IMG/VR virus record: IMGVR_UViG_3300033571_007841
Span: 1-27,619 of that record
Direction: 5' to 3' (one strand)
DNA length: 27,619 nucleotides
Source of the DNA: a virus
Positions 3,652 to 27,619 of the stretch are shown here, one piece after another. The position numbers and the translations under genes are program-made. The notes beneath the pieces are model-generated. The model saw only the letters and a program-made list of their open reading frames with translations. It made no database searches and was not told the DNA's origin. Each line of letters begins with the position of its first letter. Positions within the stretch are counted from its first letter, which is position 1.

Positions 3652-4494
3652 ATGGACAGTATACCGAGCAATGGCATCCATGAGATGCCAGACAAAAACT
3701 ATTTCGCGATCGACCTGCCGAGCAGCAGCACGACGAAGCCGCTGCTCTCGAAGACCAACGCCCATGTCGGGTGGGATCGGGAGAACCCGCAGACCGAGCA
3801 TTCCGATGCCTTCAGCATCGGCGCTCTGGTGCATGCTCTGGTTCTCACGCCAGACTCGATTGAAGAATCGTTCATCCGCCATGCGAAGTTGGACAAGCGG
3901 ACGAAGGAAGGAAAGGCGGAGTGGGAATCGCTGACCAAGAGGTCATCGATGACGGGAGCCCGCCTCATCGACGATGAGCAGTGGGCTGATGCCGAGCGCA
4001 TGGCGAACGCCATAGCCGAGCATCGTTCCTGCAAGCAACTCCTGAGTCTTGCTAGCCTTCGTGAACGATCCGTCATCGGAGATGTCTGCGGACGCCCAGC
4101 CAAGTGCAAGATCGACGCCATGTCCGATGACCTATCGGTCATCGTTGACATCAAGACCTGCCTGTCGGCGAGCCCGACGGAGTTCAGCAGGTCGGCTGCT
4201 GCCTTCGGATACGCCCATCAGGCTGCGTTCTACAGGCGGATGGTATGCAGTCTGGACAATCCGCCCAAGCGGGTCGACTTCGTCTTCGTCTGCGTGGAGA
4301 AGACGAGCCCGAATCTCGTCGCCGTGTATCGGCTTGCCGATGCGGCGATCGATCTCGCTGACAAGCGGATCGACGAAGTCGTCGCGAGATGGTGGGCTGT
4401 GAAGGAAGGCGACCGAAGCGGATACCCGACGGAGATCACCGACATCGACCTGCCCGCATGGGCATACAAGACGCAAGGAGACGGCAATGAGTGA
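3652..4494 (+). CDS. PD-(D/E)XK exonuclease, RecE/ExoVIII type
   Basis: The product is 280 residues. It resembles phage 'PD-(D/E)XK nuclease-like / exodeoxyribonuclease VIII' proteins (DUF3799 group). Visible signatures are the N-terminal G-x-x-x-H-x-x-V element (G57-H61 region), the catalytic core with D155 followed by D166-I-K168, and a downstream Q190-x-x-x-Y194 motif of the kind that follows the core in RecB/exonuclease-like folds. It would resect dsDNA 5' to 3' and leave a 3' single strand for the annealing protein encoded next. GGAGGAGACA before the ATG at 3652 fixes the start; an internal ATG at 3685 is less likely. Its stop overlaps the bet start by eight bases, so the pair is probably co-translated. 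Confidence 0.85.
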
Positions 4495-7727: not shown

Positions 7728-8176
7728 ACGCAGCGCTGCTGTCGTGGCCGCACAAGGCGCTCTCGCCGAATGCCAGAGCCCACTACCTCGTCAAGCACAA
7801 GGCTTCTCGGGCGGCTCGGTACTCGGCGTCTGTTATCGGTACGGGCGGGAAACGGCTCCAGAATCCCGTCTGCGCCGTCGTCCCTCTGGTGGCTGATCAG
7901 AGGCATCGGGACATCGACAACGTCTTGGCGGGGCTAAAAAGCGCCTTAGACGGGCTCACCGATGCTGGATGGTGGGAGGACGACAGCAAGATCGTCGGGT
8001 TCCACCTGTCGCCACCCCTGTTCAGTAAGAAATTCAAGGAGAAGAGAATCCTGATCGCGGCGGTGGAGCAGTTCGAGGAACGCGACCTTGCGGAGTGCGT
8101 GAGGCGCTTCCGCGAGGACGTCATCACGGGCTTGCCGCACGACGCGCTGCACAGGTGGTTTGGACTGTCGATGTAA
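7724..8176 (+). CDS. rusA: RusA-family Holliday junction resolvase
   Basis: The product is 150 residues. The GTG start at 7724 overlaps the DUF1376 stop (GTGA). The catalytic region shows the RusA pattern: D63-I-D65-N66, K72, then D86-D87 after 'AGWWED', aligning with the essential Asp70, Asp72, Lys76 and Asp91 of E. coli RusA with a three-residue insertion. The N-terminal 'LSPNARAHYLVKHK' fits the usual RusA start. RusA dimers cut four-way junctions produced by recombination, which suits its place at the end of a block containing an exonuclease and Bet. It is slightly longer than E. coli RusA at the C-terminus (about 35 extra residues after the core). A perfect terminator begins on the last base of its stop codon. 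Confidence 0.9.
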   Translation: MNAALLSWPHKALSPNARAHYLVKHKASRAARYSASVIGTGGKRLQNPVCAVVPLVADQRHRDIDNVLAGLKSALDGLTDAGWWEDDSKIVGFHLSPPLFSKKFKEKRILIAAVEQFEERDLAECVRRFREDVITGLPHDALHRWFGLSM

Positions 8177-8211
8177 TAAGACCCCAGCGGTTGCTGGGGT
8201 CTTATCTTTTT
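8176..8211 (+). terminator. Rho-independent terminator of the + strand block
   Basis: A perfect 13-bp stem (8176-8188 with 8193-8205), a GGTT loop and the tail CTTTTT (8206-8211) follow the rusA stop directly. On the - strand the hairpin exists but no U-run follows it, so it is mainly a + strand terminator. Confidence 0.93.
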
Positions 8212-8307: not shown

Positions 8308-11300
8308 TCACTGTAGCGGCTTCTGCTTGCGAGTCAAGTTCCTCTGCTGAATCACAAGGCTCATCAGTTGGTTTCGCAGTTTGTCGACCTCCCTGCGCTG
8401 CTCAGGCGTCTGCGCGTCCCTCGCCATCTGGCGCAACCGCTTAGTCGCGTCGTCGATCCGCTGGATCATCCGAGACTCCGAGAACTTGTCGAAGTCCAGC
8501 GTCCCTAGGTCGCGTCCTTCCGCGTCTGGCTTCGCCATCTCGCGCTTGCGCGCGACCTCGACCTGAGCCTCGTCCTTGATCTTGTTGTACTCCGACACCG
8601 TGAACCGCTGATCCTGTGCGCTCGTTCCGTAGAACGTACTCAGGAACGGGATGTCGCGAGTCTCAGCCTCTCCACGCGCCGTCGCGTAACCGCTCTGGAG
8701 CATGCGACCGAATCCGCTGAACATGAACCCGACCATGTACTCCAGCGTGTCGGGGTGGATGTCGAGGAACTCTGGGCGCGGGGGATCGATCTCGTTGCCG
8801 CCACCAGCCTTGGCAAGGAACTCGGATACGTCGCGGTAAACCTGCGGCGTGTTCTCGAACGCTCGGTAGGCTTGCGTAGTCTCCGCCCCGAACGGCTGCT
8901 CTGGGTAGATCCGCGACCCAGCGAAGTTCGAGTTCTGCGCGAGTTCTGGGATGAAGCGCAGCAGCGTCGGGAAGGCGAATGAAACCATGTTGTCCATGCC
9001 CTTGGTGATGCCGCTGCCGCCAAGCGCGTTGTAGGAGTTCATCGCGTTGTCGATGAAGTTCGCGACGACGTCGGAATAGGTGATCCGATCACCGAACATG
9101 GCGTCGGCGAGGTCGGTTCCGAGAGTGGTGAACACATTGAACCCGTGAGGCTGCGGCATGCGGACGAATTCGCCGCTCCCGTTGGGGTTGTACAGGTAGT
9201 AGTAGCCCGCCTTGTCGTATGGACTCTCCTTGTCCCAGTTGTTCATCTTCTTCTCCTCGTCATCGCCAGCGTTCAGGCGGGCGAGTACCGCCTGCATGAA
9301 GCCGATCGAAACCAGAGCGGGGACAAGTTCCTTCGCGCGACCAAGAGCCTTGAGCGTGTTGACGCTGCCTTGGATCGACGCATTCATGTAGAGATGCGTC
9401 ATGTTCAGGGTGCGACCAAGCAGTCCTCGCTTCTTGAAGTCGATGACTACGTCGCGGGAGGAGAGCGCAGCGCGCTCTCGGGTCATCTGACGACCTGCCT
9501 GACGCTCGCGTTCGCGCGCGGCAGGAGACATGCGCTGGTTGAAATGCGCCAGTCTGGTCGCCGTCTCCGACGCCTTGTAGGCAGCGGTGTACCAGCCAGT
9601 CAGGTATCTGGAGATCGTCATCACGCTCGGATCTCCGCGCTCTACCTGCCTTCGGATCTCGTCGAACTGGCGGACCTTCTCGTTGAGCGAGTTGCGCTCG
9701 ATGAACAGCATGTCGCCGCCAGCGTCCACGAAGCGCTTGTATGCGCCAGTAGGACCAAGACCTCGCCACTCGTCGCGCATCACGTTCCAGAATGCCTTCG
9801 GCCACCGAGCGGTCTGCGCGACCGTGTCAGCCAGTCCGTACTGCGCGTAGTTGGTGAGCGATCCAGTCTGGACGTCCTTGATGATGTTGCGGACCATCCA
9901 GATCGGTGCAAGAACGCCAGTCGTCATCGACCTGAAGATGCGGTTCGGAACCTCCATGACCGCCCCGAGCATGCTGATGTCGCGGGAACCAGTCATCGCA
10001 TCCCGAAGCCGCTGGTTCTCGATCTGGATCACGACGAGGTCGCCAGTGTTGTACTGCTCCCCGTTGATCATCATCGGTTCGCTCAGGTACAGACCGAAGT
10101 TGTCTGGGTTCTGCGCCCACTGGTAGTCGAAGACTGGTCGAACGACCCCGTTGACATTGCGGCGAGTGGTCGGCTCGATCACGCGAGCCATGTTGGGATC
10201 GCCTACCGCCATGACCAGACGGAGGAATCGGTTCGCGACTCGGTTTCGCTCGACTCGGCGGATCGAATCCTCGACTACGAACGCGACCTGAGAGGTCACA
10301 TGCATGGCTCTCGACTGACGACCGAGCGCTTGGGGCATGCCGCGACCGCTCGCCGACATTCCCCGTCCGAATGCCGTCCCCTCCTCGAACTCCTCTTCGA
10401 TGAAGTCGTAGCGACCTCGAAGGGGGACATAGTTCTGGTAGCGGGAGGTCATGCGGTCGTACATTTCCTGAGTGATCAACCCGTTCCGCACTCGCTCTTC
10501 CAGAGATTCTCGGAGCATTGCGCGCCACTGGTTCGCGAACCCATTGAGCGTGTCGAACGTGCCGTTCACACGGTGTCCATTGAGGATGTTGTCAGCCTCG
10601 ATGTCCATCATGCCAGAGCCTCCATCAGGCATCTGGGGATTGATGCCTCTGATGTAGTCGTTGCGCTCGCGGGCATGCTGAGCCGTAAGGAACTCATCCA
10701 TCATGTCGAGGTTCACGCCAGCGACATGCATCTCCCGCAGGAGCCGCGTGTAACTCCTGTCTGCCTCCATCACGCGGGCAGCAACGCGATCCGAAAGGAT
10801 GCGGACGCCTTGGTATGGATTCGATGCGTCAGGAAGATTTCCTCCCATGCGGCGACGGATGTCGTCGGTGTACCTGCGAAGTTCAAAATGCTCGTCGTCG
10901 ATGATGCGGCGAGCCACGTCGTATGACCCGTTGATTCCGCGCCTCATGCTGAACATCGGCGTCAACTTGCCTTCTCCAGCAGCGGAAATCATCGCGTCAT
11001 TCAGGACCAACTGCATTCTTGGCGCAGGTCCGAGAGGCATCTGGTTGCCGACCTTGTACTGCTCATACACGACATCAGCGCCGAATTGAGCAGCCATCTT
11101 CTCGGCATACGAGCGGAGCATTCCCTTCGGTCTTGGCTTTCCGCTTGCGATCGATGCCTCGATCTTGTTGATCCTGTCATCGATCTTGTGGCTTTCGCGC
11201 ATCTGTCCGAGCGCCTTTACACGCTTGAGGTCGTCAAGGACATCCCACCCGTACATCGACACGGATGCGGTCGCGGTCATGTGAGAGGCATGCGGAGTCT

Positions 11301-14300
11301 CTTCTGGAAGCGTGAATACGACCCGATTGCCAGCCTTGCCTCCCCTCGCGATCGTTTCATTGATCGCAGAGGCAAGCGTCGGGTAGATCCAGTCGTTGGT
11401 GAGTTGCATCGACGTCGATGACTTGTACGTCGTCGTCAGTGGAGACGGACTCACTGCGTCGGCAGGGAAGACCTTGACCATCGTCTGGAAAAGGGTCGAC
11501 GATCCAGCGCCCTTATGCGTAATGGTCTCCATCCACTTGGAGGTCTGGTTCTTCGCGGCATCGTCATTGCGCTCCGCATAGAGGTCATCGACCGCAGCGA
11601 GTCGATTCACCTCATGTCGAGCCTGCTCCAAGGAAAGTAGGTCGTTCCCATACGCATTGAAGAACGATTCTGGAAGACTGTTGATCAGGGCAGCGCCCAC
11701 ATTTGTCGGACTGCTCATGCTGTCGCTGACAGTCCGCTTTGGCTCACTTTGGGTCGCCGATACATCGATCGATGCCGAACCCTTCCCAGTCGTCAATCCG
11801 TAGCGCAGTTCAAACAGTTTGCCGTGGACTCCAGAAACCTCATGGAACTGGGCGTTGGCAATTCGGCCTTCATGCAATGTTTCTGCTGCCGCTGCCTGAA
11901 TAGCCGATGCCCAGACCGTGTTCTGGAAATGGTCATACATCGACTTCTTGACCTTGGGGCGCAAGTACCCATACACGAATTCCCGTACGACTTTATTCGC
12001 AGCCACATTGGCATAATCACCATCAAGACCCATCATCGCCATCGGATCTTGGGTCGCATAATGGACACCCTTCTCAATGGAATCAGCAGCGACTAGACGG
12101 GCGATCCTATTGACCTTACGAATTTCTGGGTCGTCTCCTTGATACTCTTTGATTTCCTCATCCACCGCTGCTTTGAGTCCGCTTCTGAACCGCAAGTCGT
12201 GTGCGATACGCTCGAATTTTTCCTTTCCGTACCGAACTTCGATTGCTTCGGCAACCAGCGCGTACATGGAAATCGGACTGGAAAAACCGAACTGACTCGG
12301 GGACGAAAGCATCATGTTGGCGAACGTCTGGTCGGCAAAACGATATAGATGTTCGTCTGCCCATGTCTCTCCGAGTTCGCTATCTGGATCGAGGCTCAGA
12401 TTCGAGATGTCAGAAACAGGACGCATTGACTCGTACATAGCCTTTGCGTCGCTTCGGCTCGTCTCTGAAATACTTGCATTGGTTACGACGAATGCTGTCT
12501 CAACAGGAGTCAAGTCCCTCGCGACAAAGTCGAGGATTTCGCCTTTCGACATGAACTTCGACAGGTTCGCTACGTACTCCCTTGCCCTTTCCAGAACAGA
12601 CTGCGCGGAATTCATTCGCGTAGTCGCATCAATCCGAGGGTCTTGATTTGCTCCAGTCCTTGCAATCGACGCTGGAAGATCAGTCAGGTGTATCTTTGGA
12701 TCGAAATCGTCACCAACGACTTCGCGCACATCCATCGTCAAACCAGATGCAGAGTGCAGCGCATCCTCAAGACGGGGCTTGTCAGAAGGGTTCCACACAA
12801 ATGCCCTCTGTGCGACAGCCCTGCCGATCGGTCTAGTCAAAGCCAATCGGAAAAATCCGAGACTATTGCTGACCCCAGAACTATTTCGCTCTCCATCTTC
12901 ATATTTGAAGACGTCGAATTCAGTAGCCCTTGATAGGTATCCACTTCGGAATTGAAGACCCTTGTCGTCCGCCGTCGAGTGATGAATGCTCTGCATTTCC
13001 TCGATCAGCGCATCGGATGTCTTCTTCGGGAACGACACGCGATAGTGAGCGATGTTGTTCTTTCCCTGACGCTCGTCGTCGAAATGAGACTCCACGAATT
13101 GTGGGTCAACCCTGTACGACATCGGGGTCGGCTCGAAGTCCAGTTGGATTCCGACCTCTGCGTAGCCAGTTGTATTGATCTTGAACTTCGGATCGCGGTA
13201 CTCACCGTATGTTTCCGAGTTCACTGGTCCAAGGACAACTGCATTTGCCTTGATCGGAACAGCGGCGTCAATCTCAGCAAGGAACTGCAACGGAGTCATC
13301 TTCGCCGTAGGTTCAGATGCCTGCAATTTCTTCTCGATGCCAAACGGATTGTCGAACATCCAAGGCATCAGGAACTTCGCCTGATCCTTCGGAACACCGC
13401 TTGACGCAAGCCAAGTCATCCATTCATCTGGAGTCAGGCTGGTCTTGCCAGATGGAAGACCCTCAATCTTCGTGCCATTTTTAATTGACTCGGTCAACTT
13501 CGACCGAACCTCTTGGAACTTGCTTGCAAATGGTCTGACTGATTCGACGGTTCTTTCCGTCTTTCCTTCAGCAGCGGTTTCAGTCACATCCACGAACCGA
13601 GACTTGCCGATGGTTGTCTGACTTACCTTTCTCGCCTCCCGCTTGGTTTCTTCTTCTGGTGGAACCGTGATCTCCGTCTTGATCTGCGCCTGTTCCTCGG
13701 CTCCGCGCATAGATGCCATTGCAGTTGGCGATGGCGCAGCAGTGGGCGCAGCAGTGGGCGCAGCGGTGGGCGCAGCGGCAGCAGCACCTTCTGCACGGAG
13801 TTGCTGCTCGTATGCCATGCCCTCTCTGAGGTTCTGCTCGTATCGCTCCTGCGCAGCCTTGCGATAGGCAAGATCCATCTTGGTGTTTCGGTCGATCACC
13901 ATTTGGGCGCGCTGACCAAACATGTCGATGACAGCCTTCGCATGCTTGCCAGCAAAACCACGCTTGGTCAGTACGCTCGAAAGCCATCCCATGAACTTCG
14001 CTGCCGATCGGTTGTTCGCCGACTTGTACAGAGGGTCATGCTTCGACTTGGCTTCGTGCTGTGCCGCCATCGCGACCGTCGAGCCCGTTGTCTGGGTGAC
14101 CGTCTCGGCGACAGTCTCCTCCGCAAAGGTTTCGACCTGCTTCATTTCCCTCTTGGCTTCTGCGCGCTGTTCAGCCGTCGCAGTCTTCGATCCAAGAACG
14201 CGCTGTGCGGCTTCGTAGCGGGCAATCATGTCATTGATCACCTCAGCGTCAGTCGAGTTAGCAAGCATCGGGTTGACACGACGCCAGTAGTCCGCTCCAG

Positions 14301-16950
14301 CCTGCAAGGAGAACACGGGGTCGATGTTGAACAGCAAGTTGACCCAATGAGCGCCACCTCTGGACTGGCTCACGCCGCGATGCACCGCCTCATGGGTTGC
14401 TGCTACGAAGGCAGATCGGAAAGTCATCGCAGATCCGTTCTCGCGGATCAGGAAGATTCCGTTCTCACTCGACTGGCTGTCGTATGCTCCATCCATCGGG
14501 ATGGCAATTGTGCGCTTCTGCCCATTTGATTCGATCGTCACCGTGCCATCTAGGATGACGGCAGGATTACCAGCCGAAGCCAACTGGCGCTCGCCGTCCG
14601 ACAGTTCATCATCCTGAACCTCGAAAAGATCGATGGACACGGACGCGCTGAACGGAACTGGCTCGTATTTCTTGCCGCTCTGCTTGGCTTGCTCAGCCAT
14701 TCTTGCCTGTTCCATTTCATGGCGAGCCTTCTCAGCCTCCATGACTCGCGCCTCTGCCTGAGACTTGATCGACTGGATAGCCGCAGTCTTCTCCTCTGGA
14801 GTGACGGCAGTGGGTTGTCGGCGCTCCTTTCCTCGGGCAAGCAGGTCTAGGTCGATCTGGTTTGAAATCAGGTCGCCGATGTGCTTTGCACTCCCGCTGC
14901 CGTAGATTTCATGCTTGAGTCCGTATTTCCCAGCGCGCTCGGTGGCAAATGCCGATACCTGTTGCGGATCAGCGCTTGCCCCGTACGGAATGATCTCGAC
15001 GACCTTGCCTCCAGAATCACGCATCACGACGGCTCCGACGACGACATCGCCTTCGGCGACCATGTTCGGAATTCCCGTCACGAATGGAGTTACTCCATTC
15101 TGTGCCGCGTTGCCGACTGGCTTCACAAGCGCATCAGACGTGTAGTACAGGAGGTTTCCCTGACGGATCGGGTTGTTCACGTTGATTCCAGCGTCTTCCA
15201 TCTGCTGGACGACGTCTTCGGTCAACGTCACGTCCCTGTTTCGGGCGTCGACGACGACAGCCATCCTGTTTCCAGACCTGTAGTCTTCGATCTGGTGCAG
15301 AGCCATCGCTGATCCAGCCGCTGGCTGAGCCATGTTTGCAACGCGCTGCATCGCAGCGTTGTCCATGACCTGATCGAGGACTCTGGTGACAACCTGCTGC
15401 GCCTTCGTGCGACCAATCTCAGCCCTCTGTCGTCGCTTTTCGATTCCCTGAACAGTCTTGACTCCTACGGCAGTGGCGGTTCCAGCCGCAAATCCCATGA
15501 TCGCTGATTCCGTCGCTTCGCGCCAGAATCGGTTCATGTCTAGATCGTCGGTCATCGGATCGATGCCGAAAGTCTCGGCAGCGACGTTCACCGTTTCTTC
15601 AACTGCTTCAGTCGCACCGACAAGCGCCATTCTTCCAGTCGCCTTCGCTGCACCTATGAGCCCACGCGAACCAAGCGGGCTCTTTGCGCCTTCCAGAATT
15701 GTCCCAGCGATCCTGCTGGTGTTGTTGGCTCCAGCAGAAGCAACGGACTTCGATCCCTTGGCAAGCGTGTTTGCGGACTTGGCTCCCTTGGCGAACATCA
15801 AGCCCATCTCAATCATGTTTCCGACGCCTTCGGAAGCGGTTGAAGCGACGGCAGCGATGTTTCCTGCCTTCTCCATCATCTCCTTCGTCAGGGGCTTCGG
15901 AGCCTCCAGCCCCATCAATTCCGCCGTGTATCGAGCCTGATCGTAGTTTTCCTTCAGACGCTCCTGTCCAGATGCGTAGCCCATCGGCGCGAAGACAGAT
16001 AGCGCTGGAGGGTAGACCATCGACGGAGCGGAAACCGCGACGGTTCCAGCGACGGAACCGATGAACTTTCCAACCCCGCTGCTGTCCTGAAGCACCTCGC
16101 TCTTCAACTGCTTGTTCTCTGGATCGCGCGGATCGGCAAGTTGGCTTACGACTGGCCTGAGAGCGTTCAGCCCAAGCGCAAACGGGTTGTTCATCACTGT
16201 GTTTCGGAATGCTCCGACTGCTTCAGATGCAACCTTGCCGCCCATTTCAATCGGAGCAGCAACGGTGCTTTGCTCGTTCATGTACAGAATCTTGTTCTGC
16301 AATTCCTGCGGGACATCTGGCATCGGAAACGCAGCGTCGATGTCAGCATCGGTCTTGTACGGAAGGTCGGCTTCACCGACCACGTCATCGCTCAAGACCT
16401 TCTTCTGTCCGAATTTCGCTCGAATGCGTTCGTTGTGCTTTCGAGCGGCATCTCGCTTTCGTTCCATGTCCTTTCGGACTGACATGATCCCCTCATATCG
16501 GTCGAGTTCGATTCTGGAGGGGAACCTCGGGTCAAACTCAGACTGCATCTTCCCATAAAGGAACGAGCCAGTTCCCTTGATGGCTCCTTCCGCCGCACCT
16601 TCAATGACCCTGTAGGATGCGCCGACGAAATCGCTGACTTCCGCCTCCACTGCACCGCGCTTGTTTTGCGTCCACTCGTCGAACGACATCACTTGGTTGC
16701 CGTTCGCGTATGCAGAAGCCCTGTAGTTGGCGTAGTCCTCTGGACGACCAGCCTCGATTGCTTCGTCCTTGAGCGTCTTTCGCCTCGACTCCTTGACTCG
16801 GTCTTCGATGCCCTCCATAGCGACAGACCAATCTGGAGAATTTGGAGCGACACCGCGCGCCTGAAGGCGCGATCTCGTCGACTCTGCCAGACGGTCAATG
16901 TCTCGATAGATGTTCTCGAAGAGTCCGTCGTCGATGAAGTCGTTGTTCAT
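8308..16950 (-). CDS. Giant polyvalent protein with zincin and LPD38 region
   Basis: One uninterrupted 2880-residue frame. N-terminal part: Gly/Ala-rich hydrophobic segments at about 293-328, 362-390 and 481-502. Next comes a zinc metallopeptidase signature, H853-E-A-V-H857, with A943-E-E-T-V-A-E949 about 90 residues on, like the HExxH plus 'EELVAE' of the polyvalent-protein metallopeptidase. A Pro/Ala/Thr linker follows at about 1054-1078. At about 1190-2005 lies a module with 'NNIAHYR' (H1302), 'EEMQS' (1317-1321), 'GMLRSYAEKM' (about 1945) and a closing 'PMFS' (about 1997), familiar from other large phage polyvalent proteins. From about 2050 to the end it resembles large polyvalent-protein-associated domain 38: 'NYVPLRG' (about 2175), 'ALGRQSRAM', 'MVRNIIKD', and the Tyr/Gly-rich 'PNGSGEFVRMPQPHGF' (about 2585-2600). 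Proteins of this class are typically packaged and injected with phage DNA. It is last in the operon, nine bases after the previous stop, with no clear Shine-Dalgarno sequence, so coupling is likely. Domain limits are approximate. Confidence 0.85.
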   Translation of the reverse strand: MNNDFIDDGLFENIYRDIDRLAESTRSRLQARGVAPNSPDWSVAMEGIEDRVKESRRKTLKDEAIEAGRPEDYANYRASAYANGNQVMSFDEWTQNKRGAVEAEVSDFVGASYRVIEGAAEGAIKGTGSFLYGKMQSEFDPRFPSRIELDRYEGIMSVRKDMERKRDAARKHNERIRAKFGQKKVLSDDVVGEADLPYKTDADIDAAFPMPDVPQELQNKILYMNEQSTVAAPIEMGGKVASEAVGAFRNTVMNNPFALGLNALRPVVSQLADPRDPENKQLKSEVLQDSSGVGKFIGSVAGTVAVSAPSMVYPPALSVFAPMGYASGQERLKENYDQARYTAELMGLEAPKPLTKEMMEKAGNIAAVASTASEGVGNMIEMGLMFAKGAKSANTLAKGSKSVASAGANNTSRIAGTILEGAKSPLGSRGLIGAAKATGRMALVGATEAVEETVNVAAETFGIDPMTDDLDMNRFWREATESAIMGFAAGTATAVGVKTVQGIEKRRQRAEIGRTKAQQVVTRVLDQVMDNAAMQRVANMAQPAAGSAMALHQIEDYRSGNRMAVVVDARNRDVTLTEDVVQQMEDAGINVNNPIRQGNLLYYTSDALVKPVGNAAQNGVTPFVTGIPNMVAEGDVVVGAVVMRDSGGKVVEIIPYGASADPQQVSAFATERAGKYGLKHEIYGSGSAKHIGDLISNQIDLDLLARGKERRQPTAVTPEEKTAAIQSIKSQAEARVMEAEKARHEMEQARMAEQAKQSGKKYEPVPFSASVSIDLFEVQDDELSDGERQLASAGNPAVILDGTVTIESNGQKRTIAIPMDGAYDSQSSENGIFLIRENGSAMTFRSAFVAATHEAVHRGVSQSRGGAHWVNLLFNIDPVFSLQAGADYWRRVNPMLANSTDAEVINDMIARYEAAQRVLGSKTATAEQRAEAKREMKQVETFAEETVAETVTQTTGSTVAMAAQHEAKSKHDPLYKSANNRSAAKFMGWLSSVLTKRGFAGKHAKAVIDMFGQRAQMVIDRNTKMDLAYRKAAQERYEQNLREGMAYEQQLRAEGAAAAAPTAAPTAAPTAAPSPTAMASMRGAEEQAQIKTEITVPPEEETKREARKVSQTTIGKSRFVDVTETAAEGKTERTVESVRPFASKFQEVRSKLTESIKNGTKIEGLPSGKTSLTPDEWMTWLASSGVPKDQAKFLMPWMFDNPFGIEKKLQASEPTAKMTPLQFLAEIDAAVPIKANAVVLGPVNSETYGEYRDPKFKINTTGYAEVGIQLDFEPTPMSYRVDPQFVESHFDDERQGKNNIAHYRVSFPKKTSDALIEEMQSIHHSTADDKGLQFRSGYLSRATEFDVFKYEDGERNSSGVSNSLGFFRLALTRPIGRAVAQRAFVWNPSDKPRLEDALHSASGLTMDVREVVGDDFDPKIHLTDLPASIARTGANQDPRIDATTRMNSAQSVLERAREYVANLSKFMSKGEILDFVARDLTPVETAFVVTNASISETSRSDAKAMYESMRPVSDISNLSLDPDSELGETWADEHLYRFADQTFANMMLSSPSQFGFSSPISMYALVAEAIEVRYGKEKFERIAHDLRFRSGLKAAVDEEIKEYQGDDPEIRKVNRIARLVAADSIEKGVHYATQDPMAMMGLDGDYANVAANKVVREFVYGYLRPKVKKSMYDHFQNTVWASAIQAAAAETLHEGRIANAQFHEVSGVHGKLFELRYGLTTGKGSASIDVSATQSEPKRTVSDSMSSPTNVGAALINSLPESFFNAYGNDLLSLEQARHEVNRLAAVDDLYAERNDDAAKNQTSKWMETITHKGAGSSTLFQTMVKVFPADAVSPSPLTTTYKSSTSMQLTNDWIYPTLASAINETIARGGKAGNRVVFTLPEETPHASHMTATASVSMYGWDVLDDLKRVKALGQMRESHKIDDRINKIEASIASGKPRPKGMLRSYAEKMAAQFGADVVYEQYKVGNQMPLGPAPRMQLVLNDAMISAAGEGKLTPMFSMRRGINGSYDVARRIIDDEHFELRRYTDDIRRRMGGNLPDASNPYQGVRILSDRVAARVMEADRSYTRLLREMHVAGVNLDMMDEFLTAQHARERNDYIRGINPQMPDGGSGMMDIEADNILNGHRVNGTFDTLNGFANQWRAMLRESLEERVRNGLITQEMYDRMTSRYQNYVPLRGRYDFIEEEFEEGTAFGRGMSASGRGMPQALGRQSRAMHVTSQVAFVVEDSIRRVERNRVANRFLRLVMAVGDPNMARVIEPTTRRNVNGVVRPVFDYQWAQNPDNFGLYLSEPMMINGEQYNTGDLVVIQIENQRLRDAMTGSRDISMLGAVMEVPNRIFRSMTTGVLAPIWMVRNIIKDVQTGSLTNYAQYGLADTVAQTARWPKAFWNVMRDEWRGLGPTGAYKRFVDAGGDMLFIERNSLNEKVRQFDEIRRQVERGDPSVMTISRYLTGWYTAAYKASETATRLAHFNQRMSPAARERERQAGRQMTRERAALSSRDVVIDFKKRGLLGRTLNMTHLYMNASIQGSVNTLKALGRAKELVPALVSIGFMQAVLARLNAGDDEEKKMNNWDKESPYDKAGYYYLYNPNGSGEFVRMPQPHGFNVFTTLGTDLADAMFGDRITYSDVVANFIDNAMNSYNALGGSGITKGMDNMVSFAFPTLLRFIPELAQNSNFAGSRIYPEQPFGAETTQAYRAFENTPQVYRDVSEFLAKAGGGNEIDPPRPEFLDIHPDTLEYMVGFMFSGFGRMLQSGYATARGEAETRDIPFLSTFYGTSAQDQRFTVSEYNKIKDEAQVEVARKREMAKPDAEGRDLGTLDFDKFSESRMIQRIDDATKRLRQMARDAQTPEQRREVDKLRNQLMSLVIQQRNLTRKQKPLQ
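13716..13791 (-). repeat. 12-bp tandem repeat coding Pro/Ala linker
   Basis: Three or more 12-base units (GCAGCAGTGGGC-like on the + strand) encode repeated A-P-T-A units within the giant polyvalent gene at about residues 1054-1078. Flanks are Ala-rich. It marks a flexible linker between the metallopeptidase-bearing half and the following module, and is a likely site of repeat-number change. Confidence 0.8.
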
Positions 16951-16959
16951 GGGTTCACG

Positions 16960-18210
16960 CTAGAGAGGAAGACCAGTTCTCTGTCCACGCGGTGCTGCTG
17001 ATTGCTGCGGCTGCTGAGTCCTCGGCTGCTGCTGCTGCATCGATGGAGCAGGAGCAGTAGGCGTCTGGAACTCGCTTTGATGGACGTTCTGCTGCAACGA
17101 AGCGTTGCCAGCGACCATCTTCTGAACGATGAAGTTGAATGCTGACTGCATCGCTACTGGGTCGGACTGACCGTATCCGAAGTTTCGCTTTGACCAATCG
17201 CTTAGTCGAGCCATATACGCAAACACATCATCTGGTTTGTTCGCGTTCATCGGAATGTCTACGTAGTCGCTGGGGAACAAGTCACGGTCGCTCGCCAACT
17301 GCATCGCCCACCAGATGACTGGGTTCTCACCAGAGTTTCCATCTGCGTCGAGAGTGACGTCAAACAATCCAGTCGTCGGCATTCCCTTCTGCCCGCGCGC
17401 TCGGCGCTTCTCTCCGCCCCGAGTGAAGAACTCAAGGGAATTGAGCGCCGTTGCGTGGCTAGTCCGACCAGACGCCATCGCCTTCTGATAAGCCTCATCT
17501 CTGATGGAAGGAATAGGAACTTCCTTGCTGCCAACTACAATCGCATCCTTGTCAGCCTGAGTCAGTTTTTGGGGATCAAGGGTGACAGGTCTGGAACGGG
17601 GAGACAGAAGACGACCAGCCGTTGCCTGACCGAGAGTGTCCATCATCACGGACTGAAGGTCGTTGGTCAGAACCTTCCCGTTGTCATACGCCATGTTCGG
17701 AAGGACGCTGTCGAACACCTGCTTGACCACGAACTCTGGGTAGATGCCGCTCAGTGAGATGAGCGCCTCCTGCATTTCTGGGTTGATTCGCGGGTTCGCC
17801 TTGATCAGGCGGGTGACGGCATCGGTTGCCCGCGCCTTCTCTCGCTCGAACCGCATCATCTCGTCCATCTCGTTTCGGGTCTTGTTCCGCATGGTCATCA
17901 AGGACATCCACATCGATTGGTCGACGGGAATGGCTCCCTTGCCCATCTTGATCGCTGGCGTTCCATCCTCGAAAAACCCGAGATCAAATGTCTCCATGCC
18001 GATGGGATCGCCATTGACGATTCCCTCCATAGCCAGCATCGGATCAAAGGCATCCGCCGATGCCCGACCCATCACCGCGTCCTGCATGGCTCGCTTCTGG
18101 GTATCTTCGGGCTTGACAAGACCGTTTGCGATGTCAGCCGTAACCGACTCGACGCCAGTGTCGCGCTGGAGCAAGTACGGTGGGGTGCTTTCCTGCTGCT
18201 GGTTCTGCAT
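16960..18210 (-). CDS. Putative internal virion/ejection protein (gp15-like position)
   Basis: The product is 416 residues. TAGGA before the ATG at 18210 supports the start. The N-terminus is Gln-rich, the middle is acidic and helical (Met-rich, about residues 95-175), and the C-terminus (about 375-416) is a disordered Gln/Pro/Thr/Ala stretch. The whole has no signal peptide or membrane segment. No family recognised. Position suggests the role: downstream of the large tail protein and a gp14-like protein, and directly upstream of the giant protein, the slot of T7 gp15 in the ejection apparatus. The assignment is by synteny only. Confidence 0.75.
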   Translation of the reverse strand: MQNQQQESTPPYLLQRDTGVESVTADIANGLVKPEDTQKRAMQDAVMGRASADAFDPMLAMEGIVNGDPIGMETFDLGFFEDGTPAIKMGKGAIPVDQSMWMSLMTMRNKTRNEMDEMMRFEREKARATDAVTRLIKANPRINPEMQEALISLSGIYPEFVVKQVFDSVLPNMAYDNGKVLTNDLQSVMMDTLGQATAGRLLSPRSRPVTLDPQKLTQADKDAIVVGSKEVPIPSIRDEAYQKAMASGRTSHATALNSLEFFTRGGEKRRARGQKGMPTTGLFDVTLDADGNSGENPVIWWAMQLASDRDLFPSDYVDIPMNANKPDDVFAYMARLSDWSKRNFGYGQSDPVAMQSAFNFIVQKMVAGNASLQQNVHQSEFQTPTAPAPSMQQQQPRTQQPQQSAAPRGQRTGLPL

Positions 18211-18218
18211 GGTTCGTC

Positions 18219-18710
18219 CTAACTGACTGTTCCGTCAAGAGCGAAGATCGGAGAACCTCCGCGCGATGGTGATCCGATGTATCTCGGCGCATAGCCGCCG
18301 AAGGTGTCCATCAGCAATGACTGGTACTCGCCCCTTGCCGCTTCCTGCTCGCTGCGAAGGTCAGCACGTTCCATCTTCTCGGACTCTCGTCGAATCCGAA
18401 GAGACTCCTCAAGTTGCTTGAGAGCCCTGTCTATGCTTTTTTCTTGGAAAGTTCGCTCTTCGGCTCGCTCTTCTTGCCTGAATCCACGTTCAGTCTGAGC
18501 AGCCTCTTCCTGAGCCGCCTTGGTTGTCTCGAACTTCTTCAGCCACTGCTGGTATTCCTTTTCGCCTACTTCATCCATTTCCGTTCGGGACATCGCGCCA
18601 GAAATGGCTGCGCCCATGCCTTGAAATGGCTTGTTGACGTCGGATGCTTTCAGCCCAGCGCCAATGCCCCTGACCATGTCTTGAAAGAAGTTGGTTGCCG
18701 TCGGTGACAT
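18219..18710 (-). CDS. Coiled-coil virion-block protein
   Basis: The product is 163 residues. AAGGA seven bases before the ATG at 18710 supports the start. Residues 1-45 are Gly/Ala/Met-rich, perhaps amphipathic helices. Residues about 50-130 form a very charged Glu/Arg/Lys/Gln helix with heptad spacing, a long coiled coil. The last 30 residues are Gly/Pro-rich. It sits nine bases before the gp15-position gene. Its role is likely a structural or scaffold-like component of the ejection block; nothing more can be said. Confidence 0.75.
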   Translation of the reverse strand: MSPTATNFFQDMVRGIGAGLKASDVNKPFQGMGAAISGAMSRTEMDEVGEKEYQQWLKKFETTKAAQEEAAQTERGFRQEERAEERTFQEKSIDRALKQLEESLRIRRESEKMERADLRSEQEAARGEYQSLLMDTFGGYAPRYIGSPSRGGSPIFALDGTVS

Positions 18711-18719
18711 GATGAGTCC

Positions 18720-19592
18720 TTATGCGATTCCAGTCCCACCGTAAACGCCTACCTGCCCAGTGTTGACTCCAGCGACTGTTCCTGCCGCTGGAGCAGCACC
18801 TGATGCAAATGGATTCGCGAATCCTCCAGCAGCCCAAGAACCTAGCCCAGATCCGATGATGCTCAATCCCATCTGACCAAGACCAGCGGTTGCCTGACCT
18901 TCAAGGGCTGCACGTGCCTGAGCAGCGCCGAAATATCCAGCCAATCCGACGCCGCGAGCAGACTGAGCCATCTGGTTCTGAGTCATCATCGCGTTTACGT
19001 ATTGGTTGTTGTACATTCCAAGCAGGCTGGACGACCCAGTCGCCATCTGAGCGCCCATGTTCGCCATTGTGCCACCGTACTGAAGCGTCATTCCGCTCAA
19101 TCCAGCAGCCCGCTGAGCCTCCAAGCCAGAAAGACCGCGCGCGTATTCCTCTCGGATCGCGGATTCCTGCAATGCTCCCTGCGTTCCGATGCTTTCGACC
19201 CTGCGCTGACCGAAGGTGGTAGCGCCAAGTCCGCTGAAAGCCTGTCGGGCAGTTGCAGCCTCCTGCTGCTTCGATACGTTCTGTCGAAGCATGGCGATGG
19301 TCGCCTCTCGTCCAGTCCTGTACTCGCCGATCGCCCGTTCCATTCCTTGCGCGTAATCGGTGCGAGCCTGCTCGAATGTCCGCTGGTAGTCGGACATAGT
19401 CCGAGCGAAGTCATCTCGGTACTGCGCAAGGTTGCTTGCGCGGTTCTCGGAAATGCGTGACAGGATTGGCTCGAACGAAGTCTCGATCTGCGTTGCGTAC
19501 TGACCGTAACGACTCAAGTAGTCGCGCTTCAGTTTGTCGAGCGCTGCCTTCTTGCTGTCGCTTCCGAAAAGCGCTTCTCCTAGAAAACCCAT
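18720..19592 (-). CDS. gp14-position internal virion protein candidate
   Basis: The product is 290 residues. The ATG at 19592 shares an ATGA with the upstream stop and has AGGAG upstream; an ORF start at 19655 would overlap the large tail gene by 64 bases and lacks support. Residues about 14-150 are a long Arg/Glu/Gln-rich helix. Residues about 150-230 are Ala/Gly/Gln/Met-rich. The C-terminus (about 235-290) is Gly/Ala-rich and hydrophobic, suited to membrane insertion. This layout and the position just after the large tail protein recall T7 gp14, the outer-membrane part of the ejection channel; sequence homology is not claimed. Confidence 0.75.
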   Translation of the reverse strand: MGFLGEALFGSDSKKAALDKLKRDYLSRYGQYATQIETSFEPILSRISENRASNLAQYRDDFARTMSDYQRTFEQARTDYAQGMERAIGEYRTGREATIAMLRQNVSKQQEAATARQAFSGLGATTFGQRRVESIGTQGALQESAIREEYARGLSGLEAQRAAGLSGMTLQYGGTMANMGAQMATGSSSLLGMYNNQYVNAMMTQNQMAQSARGVGLAGYFGAAQARAALEGQATAGLGQMGLSIIGSGLGSWAAGGFANPFASGAAPAAGTVAGVNTGQVGVYGGTGIA

Positions 19593-21859
19593 CAGGGGGC
19601 TCCTCTCGATTTGCCTACTTGAGACACCAGAACAGACATGCGCTCGACCGACCACGGACGTCCGTCAGAGGCAATGGTCATGTACATGCATTCCGACCTG
19701 ATGCGAGCCTTGATTGCCTCGTTCCTGCCGTTCTGCAACTGGGCAATCTCAATGACTTCAGAAGTATCGAACGATGCTCCAGAAACGTCGATTCGGTCTG
19801 CGGTGTCTGGAGCGACTGGATCGTCAATGACGTTGACGTATGGTCCGTTTGGCGTCGACAGGTCGCCATTGCTCTTCTCGTACTCGACGACGAATCCAGA
19901 TTCATCTTGCCATCCGATCTTCCAGAGGCTTGATGACACCTTCAAAACGTAGTCAAGTGGACCGTTGTACTCAACGGTCGTTCCAGACGTGAATGGATTC
20001 GCCTTGCTGTACAGACCGAAGGGGCTCAGCGCTCGTCCACCGTTCACCACATCTGGAGTTGGCGCTACGTGCGTCCCGCCGTCATAGGTGATGAACGATG
20101 CAGGGACACTGTGATCCTCGCCATCGAGGATGAGTTCGTTGAACTGGGTCACGAACACCGTGTCCGACTTTAGCCCGATCGCTGCCTGAGCCGTGTCTCC
20201 GATGCCGACTGTGAGAACAGGAGGAACGCTCACGTCTGTCTCGGAGGTCGGAACCTCGTATTCATCCTCGCCAAGATCGACCCTTACCTCCTGCAACATC
20301 ACCCGCTGCGGAAGAGGCGCGATGATCGGACCAACGGTCAAGTTGTTCTTGATCAGTTGAGATCGACGCTGAACGTCAGTCAGCGAATTCGTGTACCCGT
20401 CTATTCCGATCGGAAATCCCCTGTCGATCACGGAGATCCCGTTGTTCCCGTACATGAACAACTTCCCGAGTTTCGACCTCGATGGACTGATGTAGATCGA
20501 ACCAGTCGGACCATACATGTTCGGATCAGCGAATCGCTGCGGCCAGAATGAATCCGTCTTTGCGTCGTAATACAGGTGGACGCTCTGCTGCTCTGCCCCG
20601 CTCACCGTGAGGAAGATCCATACCCCTTCGCGATCCTCATCCCAGCAAAGCGATGGAAATATGTCGCCATTCGACATCGATCCGATCAGCGATTCCGCAG
20701 TCGATATCGCAGATATGTCATCGACCGTTGGATTCGGATCGATGTTCTTGCTCGGATCGAGGATCACTGCCTTCGACCCAGATCCGCTTCCAGACGAGCG
20801 CAGGGTTCCTCCAGAGAACACGCCGCTTCCTCCAGACGGAGGGGCTCCAAGGTCAAGCCGAAGGAAGAACGAATCGAGACGACCAGCGCTTATCCTGTTT
20901 CCTCGGTTGAAATTGAAGTCATTTGGAAGGAGCAAATAGAGCCCATCGCTTCCAAGCACATAGGCGCTCTTTTCCTGACCCTGACACCAAGCGTTTCTGC
21001 CAGCGATTCCGACGCTCTTTGTGAGCCGAACCATCTGCGCGGAACTGTCAAAGTCTGGGTCTGAGGTCAGGTACTCGAACGAGTTCGTGCATCCGAACAT
21101 CAATCCAGTCTGACCGAACGGGAACATGGCGACGATCGGGTCGCCGACGGTTCCGTATCCTTCGCCTCCAGTTCCTCCAGCAAGTGCGGATACGAATCCG
21201 TTGTTCGCATCCCATCCATCTGTGCTAGTGCTTTTTCCGAACGGCTTGTCTGCACCGCATGCGAACCACACGGTCGGAATCGTCCTGAATCCAGAGATGA
21301 CGACGCGAGCGCCCCATCGGCATATCAACGTAGCCCTGTCACCGTTGGTGACACCGACTGGATCGCACTGGTATGGACCAGACTTCGGGCTGCTGCTGCT
21401 TCCCCAGTACTTGACTCCCTGATCCGTTCCAGATCCAGTTGGAGAATCAAGATGAACGACGACGTAGTTGGTTCCGTCGACGAAGAAGAAATGCTCGTTG
21501 AACTGAATTCCGCTGATCACGGATGCAGTGGTACTCAGTTTTGCTGTCGCCTGATCGCCGAACAGCGTCCAACTCGGAGTCGCTGATTGCGCGCTGCCGT
21601 AGTAGACCTTTCCTTCCCTGACCATGATCAGGTTCTCGGTGAACGTGCCGTTGAGGTACAAGCGGTACACGCCTAGGAACTGGACGTTCTGGTCGTACCA
21701 TCGCTTTGTTCCCTGACGAGTTCCGATCCTGATACGCCCGTTGTACACATCCGACGGAAGCACGTTCAGGCACGACGGAGTCATGCCCTGCGGGACGGAA
21801 CTGTAGGAGTTCTGCTCCGTGAAGCCCTTCAGCGGAAGTTGTACGGGCATCATCGTCAT
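19592..21859 (-). CDS. Large tail/nozzle-type structural protein
   Basis: The product is 755 residues. The start is the ATG at 21859, which shares an ATGA with the fibre-gene stop (21856-21858); in-frame ATGs at 21853 and 21850 and an ORF start at 21988 are less likely. The N-terminus, 'LPLKGFTEQNSYSSVPQG' with 'NVLPSD...GRIRIGTRQG', has the look of podoviral tail-tube proteins, where a strand-rich head domain opens with a Gly/Gln loop and 'N-V-x-P-D...G-R-x-R-x-G'. The rest is rich in aromatic and Gly residues with regular strands, as expected of a beta-propeller or beta-sandwich (T7 gp12 is a comparable size, 794 aa). A low-complexity Gly/Ser stretch lies at about residues 370-390. Role inferred, not proven. 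Confidence 0.7.
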   Translation of the reverse strand: MTMMPVQLPLKGFTEQNSYSSVPQGMTPSCLNVLPSDVYNGRIRIGTRQGTKRWYDQNVQFLGVYRLYLNGTFTENLIMVREGKVYYGSAQSATPSWTLFGDQATAKLSTTASVISGIQFNEHFFFVDGTNYVVVHLDSPTGSGTDQGVKYWGSSSSPKSGPYQCDPVGVTNGDRATLICRWGARVVISGFRTIPTVWFACGADKPFGKSTSTDGWDANNGFVSALAGGTGGEGYGTVGDPIVAMFPFGQTGLMFGCTNSFEYLTSDPDFDSSAQMVRLTKSVGIAGRNAWCQGQEKSAYVLGSDGLYLLLPNDFNFNRGNRISAGRLDSFFLRLDLGAPPSGGSGVFSGGTLRSSGSGSGSKAVILDPSKNIDPNPTVDDISAISTAESLIGSMSNGDIFPSLCWDEDREGVWIFLTVSGAEQQSVHLYYDAKTDSFWPQRFADPNMYGPTGSIYISPSRSKLGKLFMYGNNGISVIDRGFPIGIDGYTNSLTDVQRRSQLIKNNLTVGPIIAPLPQRVMLQEVRVDLGEDEYEVPTSETDVSVPPVLTVGIGDTAQAAIGLKSDTVFVTQFNELILDGEDHSVPASFITYDGGTHVAPTPDVVNGGRALSPFGLYSKANPFTSGTTVEYNGPLDYVLKVSSSLWKIGWQDESGFVVEYEKSNGDLSTPNGPYVNVIDDPVAPDTADRIDVSGASFDTSEVIEIAQLQNGRNEAIKARIRSECMYMTIASDGRPWSVERMSVLVSQVGKSRGAP

Positions 21860-23043
21860 GCCGTTCTGATGAATACTCCCCAGATTCCGCTCGTCGCCGT
21901 AAGTGATTGGTTGTTGTCTTCGCTGCAACTCGATGAGGTCACGGTCAGACGCGCATGACCAGCGTTTCCGACCAGAAATCCACGCCAAGTTCCATTGACA
22001 GACCGAAGGTCGGTTCTAAGGTTTCCAACCATCGTGAACAAACCGCTGGTCAGCCTTCCAGACACTTGGAATGCAATCGCTCCAGCCGTCGTGATGTGAA
22101 TAAGTGCGATTTGACCGACTCGGTCGATCTCAAGGTAATCCTTGGTCGCGGCATCCTGTAGCGCCGTCGGATTCGCAAGGTTCTGGATCGATCCGCTGTC
22201 CATGTCCAGATTTCCGCCGATGAAGGCGTTGCCGAGCAGGCTGACAAGACCAGCGGCATTGATGGACACGCGCTGTGTGCCTCCAGTGGAGACAGACACC
22301 TCGTTCGCGCCACTGAAGTAGATGCCAGTATCTGGGTCATCGTGGTTGGAAACGGCAGGAAGAGCGTTTGTTCCGTCCGTGAACAAAGCCTGCTGGCTGC
22401 TGTTGAACCTGATCGCCTCGGCTCCATTTGTGGACACAGCCAATGCGTCGTCAGCAGGGAACCACACGCCAGTGTTGGTGTCTCCGTTGTTCGTGATCGA
22501 TGGAGCAGTGACGGTTCCATCGGAGAACGTTGCCTGACCCTTCGCCTCGAATGTCGTGCATGTAACGGGCGTTCCAGTCGTCGCATCAGTAGCCCACAGC
22601 AAGGTTCCCTGCCATGCTCGCCAGACGGATGCATCGCCGTCGTATACGCGGATGTAGTTCTTGCTTGGAACCGTTCCGTTCCCCTCCGTGGTCAGACGCT
22701 GAACCTTGATAGAATCGAACACCGTCACATCCACGACAACCGATCCGTCGTCAGTCGTGAAAGTGAATGGACCGTTGGTCAGGCTTGTGGTTCCGCTCGT
22801 CCAAACGTATCGACCAAACTGGTTCGCATCGTTGATGTTGCTGACGCCAGTCGATGACCGAAGTGGAAATGTTCCAGCAAGGTAGTCGGTGGTGTTCCAC
22901 GTACCTCCGCTCGAACCTCCGATCTTGACGCCAACTGCGATGCCGCTTGCGTCGTACTCGACAACTGGTTCTCCAGCGGCAATGGCGTCTGCCGATAACC
23001 AGTTGGCTGTCGTGTCTCTGCGGAGTTGGAACTTGACTGGCAT
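21856..23043 (-). CDS. Tail fibre protein with duplicated DGT...GDTxTG module
   Basis: The product is 395 residues. AAGGAG precedes the ATG at 23043, which beats a longer ORF start at 23127 that would read through the lipoprotein gene. The N-terminus 'FQLRRDTTANW' and '(A)GEPVVEYDA' is the usual anchoring start of phage fibres. Residues about 170-213 and 219-261 are two copies of a module with 'F-x-D-G-T...A-P-S/A', 'N-x-G/D-D-x-(N/D)-T-G-(V/I)-(W/Y)-F', and 'S-T-x-G-x-(E/Q)', seen in many tail fibres and likely trimeric beta-strand repeats. The C-terminal 90 residues contain Ser/Thr-rich strands. Role: adsorption. Confidence 0.85.
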   Translation of the reverse strand: MPVKFQLRRDTTANWLSADAIAAGEPVVEYDASGIAVGVKIGGSSGGTWNTTDYLAGTFPLRSSTGVSNINDANQFGRYVWTSGTTSLTNGPFTFTTDDGSVVVDVTVFDSIKVQRLTTEGNGTVPSKNYIRVYDGDASVWRAWQGTLLWATDATTGTPVTCTTFEAKGQATFSDGTVTAPSITNNGDTNTGVWFPADDALAVSTNGAEAIRFNSSQQALFTDGTNALPAVSNHDDPDTGIYFSGANEVSVSTGGTQRVSINAAGLVSLLGNAFIGGNLDMDSGSIQNLANPTALQDAATKDYLEIDRVGQIALIHITTAGAIAFQVSGRLTSGLFTMVGNLRTDLRSVNGTWRGFLVGNAGHARLTVTSSSCSEDNNQSLTATSGIWGVFIRTA

Positions 23044-23045
23044 GG

Positions 23046-23285
23046 CTACTCCTTGTCGGTCACGTACGAGGTCGGAACGATCCAGTACCCCTCTGGAAGC
23101 GGGACCGTGTTTCCACTCAACACCCACTCCTTGCTTCCATCCACGCGCACCCAGACGCGCGCGCGAACGTCTGGACCAAGCCGCATCGGCGAATCTTCAG
23201 GCACGAAGATGGTGCGGTTATTTCCGCATCCACTCGCGGATGCGATCACCAGCGCGACGAAGAACGTCACGGTTAGGAACAGCAT
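23046..23285 (-). CDS. Small lipoprotein, o-spanin candidate
   Basis: The product is 79 residues. Residues 1-19 form a hydrophobic signal sequence ending in 'ASASG' before C20, a plausible though imperfect lipobox. The mature part (about 60 residues) is strand-rich with repeated Val-Arg-Val-Trp-Val and a 'VPLPEGYW' turn. The gene starts 68 bases inside the 50-residue gene (23218-23370), in a different frame, the nested layout classically seen in Rz/Rz1 pairs. It is followed 3 bases later by the fibre gene start. An outer-membrane lysis lipoprotein (o-spanin type) is the best guess. The start at 23285 has only a weak AGCAGG upstream; a longer read to 23366 is Ser/Arg-rich and probably not real. 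Confidence 0.65.
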   Translation of the reverse strand: MLFLTVTFFVALVIASASGCGNNRTIFVPEDSPMRLGPDVRARVWVRVDGSKEWVLSGNTVPLPEGYWIVPTSYVTDKE

Positions 23286-26014: not shown

Positions 26015-27619
26015 CTAGTACTTGAAGTAGAGATCGCCGTCAGCGCCGAGGCCGCTGCTCGGAGTAGTCGTGCCAGAGTATATGGTCGGTACGGATATCG
26101 CAGAACGAGCCGCCGCCGCATCCGCTGCGGTCAGCACGTTTCGACCTACTGACGTGCTGTTGGAGATGTCGGTGGCGACATGCGTGTGGCTCGACGCAGC
26201 CTTGCCATCAAGCGTTGTCTGGAGGTTCGTCACGTCGGAGATGACGTGCGTGTGAGCAAGAGGCGTTCTGGCATCGCTGAGTCTGGAATCGTTGCCGATG
26301 CAGACAGTCGAGGACGTTGTCCCAGTCGGAATCCTCGCGATGTTGAACGTGCCAGACGTGACGTCCGAAGCCGCGTGGACATGGGCAAGCGGCGTCCGTG
26401 CGTCGGACAGGCGCGCATCGTTGCCGATGCAGACGGTCGTCGACGTCGATCCTGTCGGGATGCGCGCGATGTCGAGCGTTCCCGTGGTCACGTCCGCAGC
26501 CGAATGCACGTGGCTTGTAGCCGCCTTGCCGTCAAGGGCGGTCTGAAGACCAGTCACGTCAGAGATTGCGTGGGTGTGGACGGATGCAGCCTTGCCATCC
26601 AACGACGTCTGTAGGTTCGTGACGTCGCTGATCGCGTGGGTGTGCGCAAGCGGGGTTCTTGCGTCCGAAAGGCGGGAGTCATTTCCGATGCAAACCGTCG
26701 ATGACGTGGTTCCCGTCGGAATTCTGGCGATGTTCAGGGTTCCAGACGTGATGTCGCCCGCAGCGTGGGTATGGCTGGCTGCTGCCTTTCCATCCAGCGT
26801 GGTCTGGAGATTCGTGACGTCGGAAATGGCATGGGTATGCGACGATGCCGCCTTGCCGTCCAAAGTCGTCTGAAGGTTCGTTACGTCCGAGATCGAATGC
26901 GTGTGCGCGGTAGGGGTACGCGCATCAGACAGGCGCGAATCGTCTGCGCGAACCGCCTTGGTGCTGCTGCTGACCCCGCTTGCCGCGAAGTCGACGGCAA
27001 ATGTTCGATCTGCTGACAGGTCGCCGCCACCAGTCAGACCTGTTCCCGTGGACAACGTCCGAAGAGTGTCCACCAGCGCGGCGTTCGGGTCGGAGATTCC
27101 GTTCGCGACCAGCATTCCCGACTGCAACTTCAGTCCGTTGCCAACGGTGATCTCTTGAACAGATCCGACCGACGTGACGCCTCGTCCAAGAAGGCGGGTT
27201 CCCGTCACGTTCTGGATCTTGGCGTAGGTGACAACGCCGTTGTCGATCGTCAGCGTGGTTCCGCCTCCGCTTACGGTGATGTCTCCCTTGTCACCGTCTG
27301 CGATTCCCTGCCCTGCTGGTCCTTCTGGTCCCTGCGGGCCATCTGACGCCATGATCGACCACGAAGACGATGGCGGATCGTCGTTCGTATTCCCGATCTC
27401 GCAGATCCATGTCTTGCCGTCGAAGCGGACGACGTCCCCGATTACATAGGTGTCGTTCGCATCCCATGTTCCACGCCATCGGATATTCGATGTCGCGGTT
27501 ACTGGGGTTAGAGCGGCCCCTGCACTGGGCGAAACTGCATATTCCCTACGAAAGGGGCTGACACGATTCGGCAGCAACCTCCCGTAGTCTCTCTGCTGGA
27601 TTCCGTCCTTGATTGCCGC
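26015..27619 (-). CDS. HxH-repeat tail fibre with CBM-like domain (partial)
   Basis: The frame runs unbroken to the window edge, so the true start is probably beyond it; a TTG at 27577 is possible but sits directly against a GGGAGG. Residue numbers below count from that TTG. Residues 31-76 resemble a small carbohydrate-binding module of the CBM5/12 chitin-binding kind: W34, W38, 'Y-V-I-G-D-V-V-R-F', W57 and W73. Residues 79-90 form a short collagen-like G-P-Q-G-P stretch. Residues 214-466 hold repeating blocks, each ending in a His-x-His motif, nine in all (first at 225-227, last at 464-466), with a longer unit 'NIARIPTG...STVCIGND...LSDARTPLAH' three times. In T4 gp37 such HxH motifs bind iron along a trimeric fibre, and the same is likely here. 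Role: adsorption. Confidence 0.88.
   Translation of the reverse strand, partial: AAIKDGIQQRDYGRLLPNRVSPFRREYAVSPSAGAALTPVTATSNIRWRGTWDANDTYVIGDVVRFDGKTWICEIGNTNDDPPSSSWSIMASDGPQGPEGPAGQGIADGDKGDITVSGGGTTLTIDNGVVTYAKIQNVTGTRLLGRGVTSVGSVQEITVGNGLKLQSGMLVANGISDPNAALVDTLRTLSTGTGLTGGGDLSADRTFAVDFAASGVSSSTKAVRADDSRLSDARTPTAHTHSISDVTNLQTTLDGKAASSHTHAISDVTNLQTTLDGKAAASHTHAAGDITSGTLNIARIPTGTTSSTVCIGNDSRLSDARTPLAHTHAISDVTNLQTSLDGKAASVHTHAISDVTGLQTALDGKAATSHVHSAADVTTGTLDIARIPTGSTSTTVCIGNDARLSDARTPLAHVHAASDVTSGTFNIARIPTGTTSSTVCIGNDSRLSDARTPLAHTHVISDVTNLQTTLDGKAASSHTHVATDISNSTSVGRNVLTAADAAAARSAISVPTIYSGTTTPSSGLGADGDLYFKY
26180..26938 (-). repeat. Degenerate HxH repeat array in tail fibre gene
   Basis: Protein-level repeats of the HxH blocks cover residues 214-466 of the fibre. 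The short block coding for ISDVTxLQTxLDGKAAxxHTH (about 60 bases) recurs at least five times (near 26203, 26526, 26592, 26787 and 26853), and a longer block three times. The copies agree strongly in amino acids but differ at many third codon positions. Confidence 0.8.

Follow-up and report, generated by a model that had tools for sequence, protein, structure and literature searches.

An LPD38-containing giant polyvalent protein with a putative divergent zincin-like metallopeptidase next to a site of module exchange

The window analyzed here, the whole of a 27,619-base IMG/VR virus record, is probably a fragment, and the phage it comes from is uncultured, short-tailed, and probably of freshwater origin. 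It encodes a giant protein of 2880 amino acids that is supported as a phage polyvalent protein with an LPD38 domain, and thus belongs to a known class of proteins that are carried by virions and probably injected with the DNA. The region at residues ~775-1015 is likely to be a divergent zincin-like metallopeptidase. The best explanation, to which we give about an even chance, is that a podovirus packages this polyvalent protein in its virion and ejects it into the cell, and that its divergent zincin cuts the giant protein itself near an adjacent linker.

The giant protein is encoded on the minus strand by a single intact, ATG-initiated open reading frame (8308..16950) and has full-length relatives in L006/L086, L007, and L095. 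The original prediction had described this uninterrupted frame correctly without stating its strand. The N-terminal region, residues 1-770 (14641..16950, minus strand, as are all parts of the protein), is conserved in the family, being ~43-50% identical to L006/L095. It contains Ala/Gly-rich hydrophobic stretches at residues 293-321 and 482-500, and has zero matches in named phages and zero in Pfam. It is followed by the putative zincin-like metallopeptidase domain (residues 775-1015; 13906..14628), a Pro/Ala-rich linker at approximately residues 1056-1077 (13720..13785), a central variable region (residues 1110-2010; 10921..13623), and a C-terminal module (residues 2010-2860; 8371..10923). 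The HExxH signature, the later AEETVAE motif, and the Pro/Ala linker named in the original prediction are all found, as HEAVH at residues 853-857 (14380..14394), FAEETVAE at residues 942-949 (14104..14127), and the linker given above.

The C-terminal region had been proposed to be of the LPD38 type, and Pfam confirms this with a match to PF18857 at residues 2570-2766 (8653..9243; E=2.7e-24; 86.7 bits, cut-off 27). LPD38 is the sole Pfam domain detected in the giant protein, and across the relatives this region keeps 67-68% identity to the window protein. The C-terminal ~850 residues have counterparts in three PHROG families of giant proteins and in 125 named phage records, the latter at ~24-27% identity, mostly in Vibrio phages but also in phages of Burkholderia, Escherichia, Ruegeria, and others. 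One match is labelled Methanosarcina virus, which has an archaeal host. An HExxH motif is present in 35 of the 53 non-redundant proteins with this module, compared to 2.8% in shuffles. Many of the giant proteins, including L005, L023, L026, and L028, have two separate HExxH regions, one of them in the form HEWFHxLDNYF.

Two groups of proteins from named phages are among the closest points of comparison. The "DarB-like" giant proteins of Bcep22-like podoviruses, such as JC1 gp69 and Bcep22 gp75, share with the window protein the C-terminal ~800 residues and the position as the last gene of the virion block; the identity over these residues is 24-25% to the orthologues of DC1, BcepMigl, CSP3, and BcepIL02, a comparison that leaves out JC1 itself. 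On the other hand, the Bcep22-like proteins carry lytic transglycosylase, helicase, and methylase regions, while the window protein lacks these by Pfam and has the HExxH region. The gp69 of the Burkholderia podovirus JC1 (4515 aa, LPD38 at 4195-4401) was identified by 51 unique peptides in CsCl-purified virions, in which it was the second-best scoring protein (PMC9144972). As a distant homologue of the window protein, JC1 gp69 offers the best evidence that such proteins are virion parts. In Vibrio phage 1.205 and Escherichia phage PhiR5_2, the giant proteins (2789-3130 aa) share the C-terminal module at ~27% identity, have one or two HExxH regions, and are preceded directly upstream by a gene for a protein of ~420-440 aa. 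However, their HExxH regions have no ordinary-search match to that of the window protein, and the N-terminal and central regions are unmatched.

The gene order around the giant gene fits the ejection-protein position assigned to it in the original prediction. The plus-strand genes at the left of the window are exonuclease VIII-like, RecT, primosomal-like, and RusA-like, and they are convergent with the minus-strand virion genes. A strong intrinsic-terminator-like hairpin (8176..8205, plus strand) lies between these convergent early and late blocks. Also on the plus strand, the frame at 335-973 contains 27-nt tandem-like units at 706-888 and has no family match, and 1637-2644 encodes a DUF932 protein (E=1.2e-35) near the exonuclease VIII-like and RecT genes. 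In the order of transcription, the virion block consists of a repeat-bearing tail fibre (26015-27577), fibre-associated genes, an Mtd_N-bearing fibre (21856-23127), a 798-aa tail nozzle-like protein (19592..21988), a 311-aa protein (18720..19655), a 163-aa protein (18219..18710), a 416-aa protein immediately upstream of the giant gene (16960..18210), and the giant protein, which is encoded among the late virion genes and comes last in the virion operon; all are on the minus strand. The first of these tail fibres has repeated HTHAISDVTNLQTTLDGKAA-type units and long direct repeats of 200-260 nt with 60-75% identity.

The nozzle-like protein is the best conserved of the upstream proteins; its frame is listed from the first possible start and overlaps its neighbours in that form. 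The 311-aa protein is coiled-coil-like with a Gly/Ala-rich C-terminus, and the 416-aa protein is a probable internal virion protein. The names "nozzle" and "gp14-like", the latter given to the 311-aa protein, are readings by eye of sequence and position, with no family matched. Three close relatives keep the order nozzle-like/311/163/416/giant, and L008 keeps most of it; the synteny of the three small genes is conserved. In L107, a contig belonging to the L008 record, genes for terminase, portal, capsid, and fibre proteins lie upstream. By position only, the giant protein resembles T7 gp16, as both come last after a nozzle and small-protein block of which they are the largest member. It differs from gp16 in that Pfam finds no lytic transglycosylase domain in the whole protein or in slices of it. 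Delivery into the host would follow from the family and the position of the gene.

The evidence for a metallopeptidase starts from the HEAVH motif, the only HExxH in the giant protein. Since shuffled copies of the protein also yield HExxH (3.7%, or 0.35% when HExxH is followed 40-140 residues on by EExx[AV]), the motif alone is weak evidence. The homologous position, however, keeps HExxH in five of five relatives, down to 24% identity, which raises the motif above chance. These relatives, which carry LPD38 and come from uncultured viruses, share the N-terminus and the HExxH region of the window protein. They are L006/L086 (two records of almost the same virus), L007, L008, L009, and L095, the last of which is a contig assigned to a Lake Erken MAG. 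Alignment queries recovered them from viral contigs and, in one search, from genome contigs, whereas a single-protein search of the viral contigs returned no relatives. No further copies were found in 400 genomes from the order of the bin that holds L095, and the window's version of the peptidase is absent from 50,697 named phage records.

Among the segments of the protein, the putative peptidase is one of the best conserved, with 62-66% identity to the relatives. HExxH is exact in six of six family members and FAEE in all except L009; the more weakly related L013 reads FVDEN at this place. Three residues, E944, E945, and E949, had been put forward as the third zinc ligand. From residue conservation, E945 (14116-14118) is the best candidate, as it is kept in five of the six family members and in L013; a third ligand is not evident in L009, the most distant relative. 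E949 was rejected because it is lost in L008.

Beyond the family, profile comparison links the HExxH region to its likely counterparts in other giant proteins (score 34.8, P 1.6e-6, hhalign 80%). The highest control scores are 9.7 among 150 shuffles of the columns and 7.1 among 11 shifted regions. The alignment spans the whole domain, placing HExxH on HExxH and the EE helix on the Glu helix. The apparent link to the zinc-peptidase regions of other polyvalent proteins is fragile: it is abolished when L013, L067, or L059 is omitted, and masking HExxH reduces the score to 15.7, about half. A second group of polyvalent-protein HExxH domains gives no profile match to the window's region. In sequence searches of Pfam and the PDB, the peptidase region matches no peptidase, and neither it nor the central region has matches in Pfam, PDB-sequence, or named-phage searches. 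This silence of Pfam tells little, because most of the other, clearer HExxH domains of polyvalent proteins that were tried escape Pfam as well; one is matched as SprT-like at E=6e-4.

Two AlphaFold models, built from 6 and 7 sequences, are of low confidence (mean pLDDT 55.7 and 53.1, and ~40-50 at HExxH). They show strands, the HExxH helix, and the later E945 helix in the order expected of a zincin, but their quality is too low for this to be taken as a fold. A mixed alignment with remote HExxH regions was excluded from the modelling because its Glu helix was misaligned. A PDB fold search with the models gave no convincing match. A viral fold search gave one formally significant match, A0A516L502, which is uninterpretable at an rmsd of 22.7. 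The region resembles the zincin-like metallopeptidases known from polyvalent proteins (Iyer et al. 2017) in its place within a giant phage protein and in its predicted HExxH helix, with predicted strands before it and a predicted helix with a conserved Glu after it. It differs from them in being divergent and Pfam-negative, with ~85 residues from HExxH to the Glu helix. The metallopeptidase of the original prediction is thus probable on the conserved catalytic residues and the profile link, while it lacks a Pfam or PDB family match and its modelled fold is of low confidence.

The region after the linker is the fastest-changing part of the protein and is swapped among relatives. Near the position of the Pro/Ala linker in the window protein, L006, L007, and L095 are longer by ~430 residues or more, and L006 carries an ADP-ribosyltransferase domain (PF18760, residues 1403-1547, E=8e-16). 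L008 has a partial domain of the same family (residues 1637-1693), and L009 has a ddrB-ParB domain. PF18760 (ART-PolyVal) is absent from the window protein by Pfam, searched whole and in slices. The domain tally of the window protein stands at a certain LPD38 and a probable peptidase, with the central region unassigned; relatives add an ADP-ribosyltransferase or a ddrB-ParB domain. Between the window protein and its relatives, residues 1401-1800 drop to 15-24% identity per 100 residues. The motifs NNIAHYR (residues 1298-1304; 13039-13059), EEMQS (1317-1321; 12988-13002), and PMFS (1998-2001; 10948-10959) are present in the central region, as predicted. Their proposed likeness to modules of other polyvalent proteins holds by motif only: the NNIAHYR/EEMQS region resembles an "LAHVRF...IEExQSDWH" segment of two other LPD38 proteins, but the profile score against these is not significant.

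Several readings of the HExxH region have to be weighed. That HExxH is a chance motif in a helical, non-zincin region is very improbable. Such a motif is expected in 3.7% of such proteins, and a family or fold match is lacking, but HExxH is exact across divergent relatives, strands precede it and a second EE helix follows it, and the profile link exceeds all controls. A purely structural or assembly function within the ejection machinery, with the peptidase activity lost or irrelevant, is doubtful, though less far-fetched. The virion RNA polymerase of phage N4 may be such a case, as its peptidase region is needed for packaging while the protein is unprocessed (Iyer et al. 2017). The helices predicted around and after HExxH in the low-confidence models, and the absence of HExxH from about one third of the C-terminal-module proteins, are in line with a structural role, and the conservation of the peptidase region would fit it too. 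On the other hand, the invariance of HExxH in all six members, together with an EE pair kept down to ~28% identity except in the most distant member, suggests selection on catalysis.

The original prediction saw the protein as an injected effector whose metallopeptidase could cleave proteins of the host, in particular those of its defences. Polyvalent proteins have been proposed to enter with the DNA, host-directed action has been considered possible for some such peptidases (Iyer et al. 2017, PMC5512222), and a homologue is virion-associated in JC1. Nevertheless, the peptidase is among the most conserved parts of the protein and is retained while the region after the linker is exchanged, and the data here point to no target. 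Because the peptidase is highly conserved and the post-linker region is swapped and fast-changing, self-processing or a structural role is favoured over cleavage of host defence proteins, which we consider unlikely. Self-processing predicts an arrangement of this kind, in which the peptidase stays constant next to a flexible linker while cargo is exchanged there. Self-processing has been proposed for such peptidases from the processed DdrB of phage P1, while the packaging of the peptidase-bearing N4 protein in unprocessed form counts against it (Iyer et al. 2017, PMC5512222).

Under the self-processing explanation, the giant protein would be packaged in the podovirus virion and ejected into the cell with the DNA. 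Its conserved parts, namely the N-terminal region, the putative peptidase, and the C-terminal LPD38 module, would enclose an exchangeable central region. Zinc would be bound by H853, H857, and probably E945, with E854 as the general base. The peptidase would then most likely cleave its own polypeptide within the neighbouring Pro/Ala linker or close to it. This would release the central and C-terminal modules, whether ahead of packaging, inside the head, or once the cell has been entered. More tentatively, the family could be a modular delivery device that combines conserved delivery parts with a self-cutting metallopeptidase of a new clade, in which the linker beside the peptidase would be both the cleavage site and the place where effector cargo, such as the ADP-ribosyltransferase of sister phages, is inserted or swapped.

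The class of proteins has already been described, as have LPD38 and the frequent occurrence of zincin-like peptidases in the class (Iyer et al. 2017). The combination of an ejected protein with a metallopeptidase has likewise been described (Iyer et al. 2017), though it is functionally uncharacterized, as the original prediction had it. What is new here is the putative clade of divergent peptidases, so far seen in only a few uncultured phages, together with the exchange of modules at the linker. As a phage strategy for bringing several activities into the cell with the DNA, polyvalent proteins are proposed but largely untested. The present family has a constant putative peptidase beside a linker that gains or loses cargo among close relatives, and this arrangement makes it directly testable whether such a peptidase cuts its own protein or the proteins of the host.
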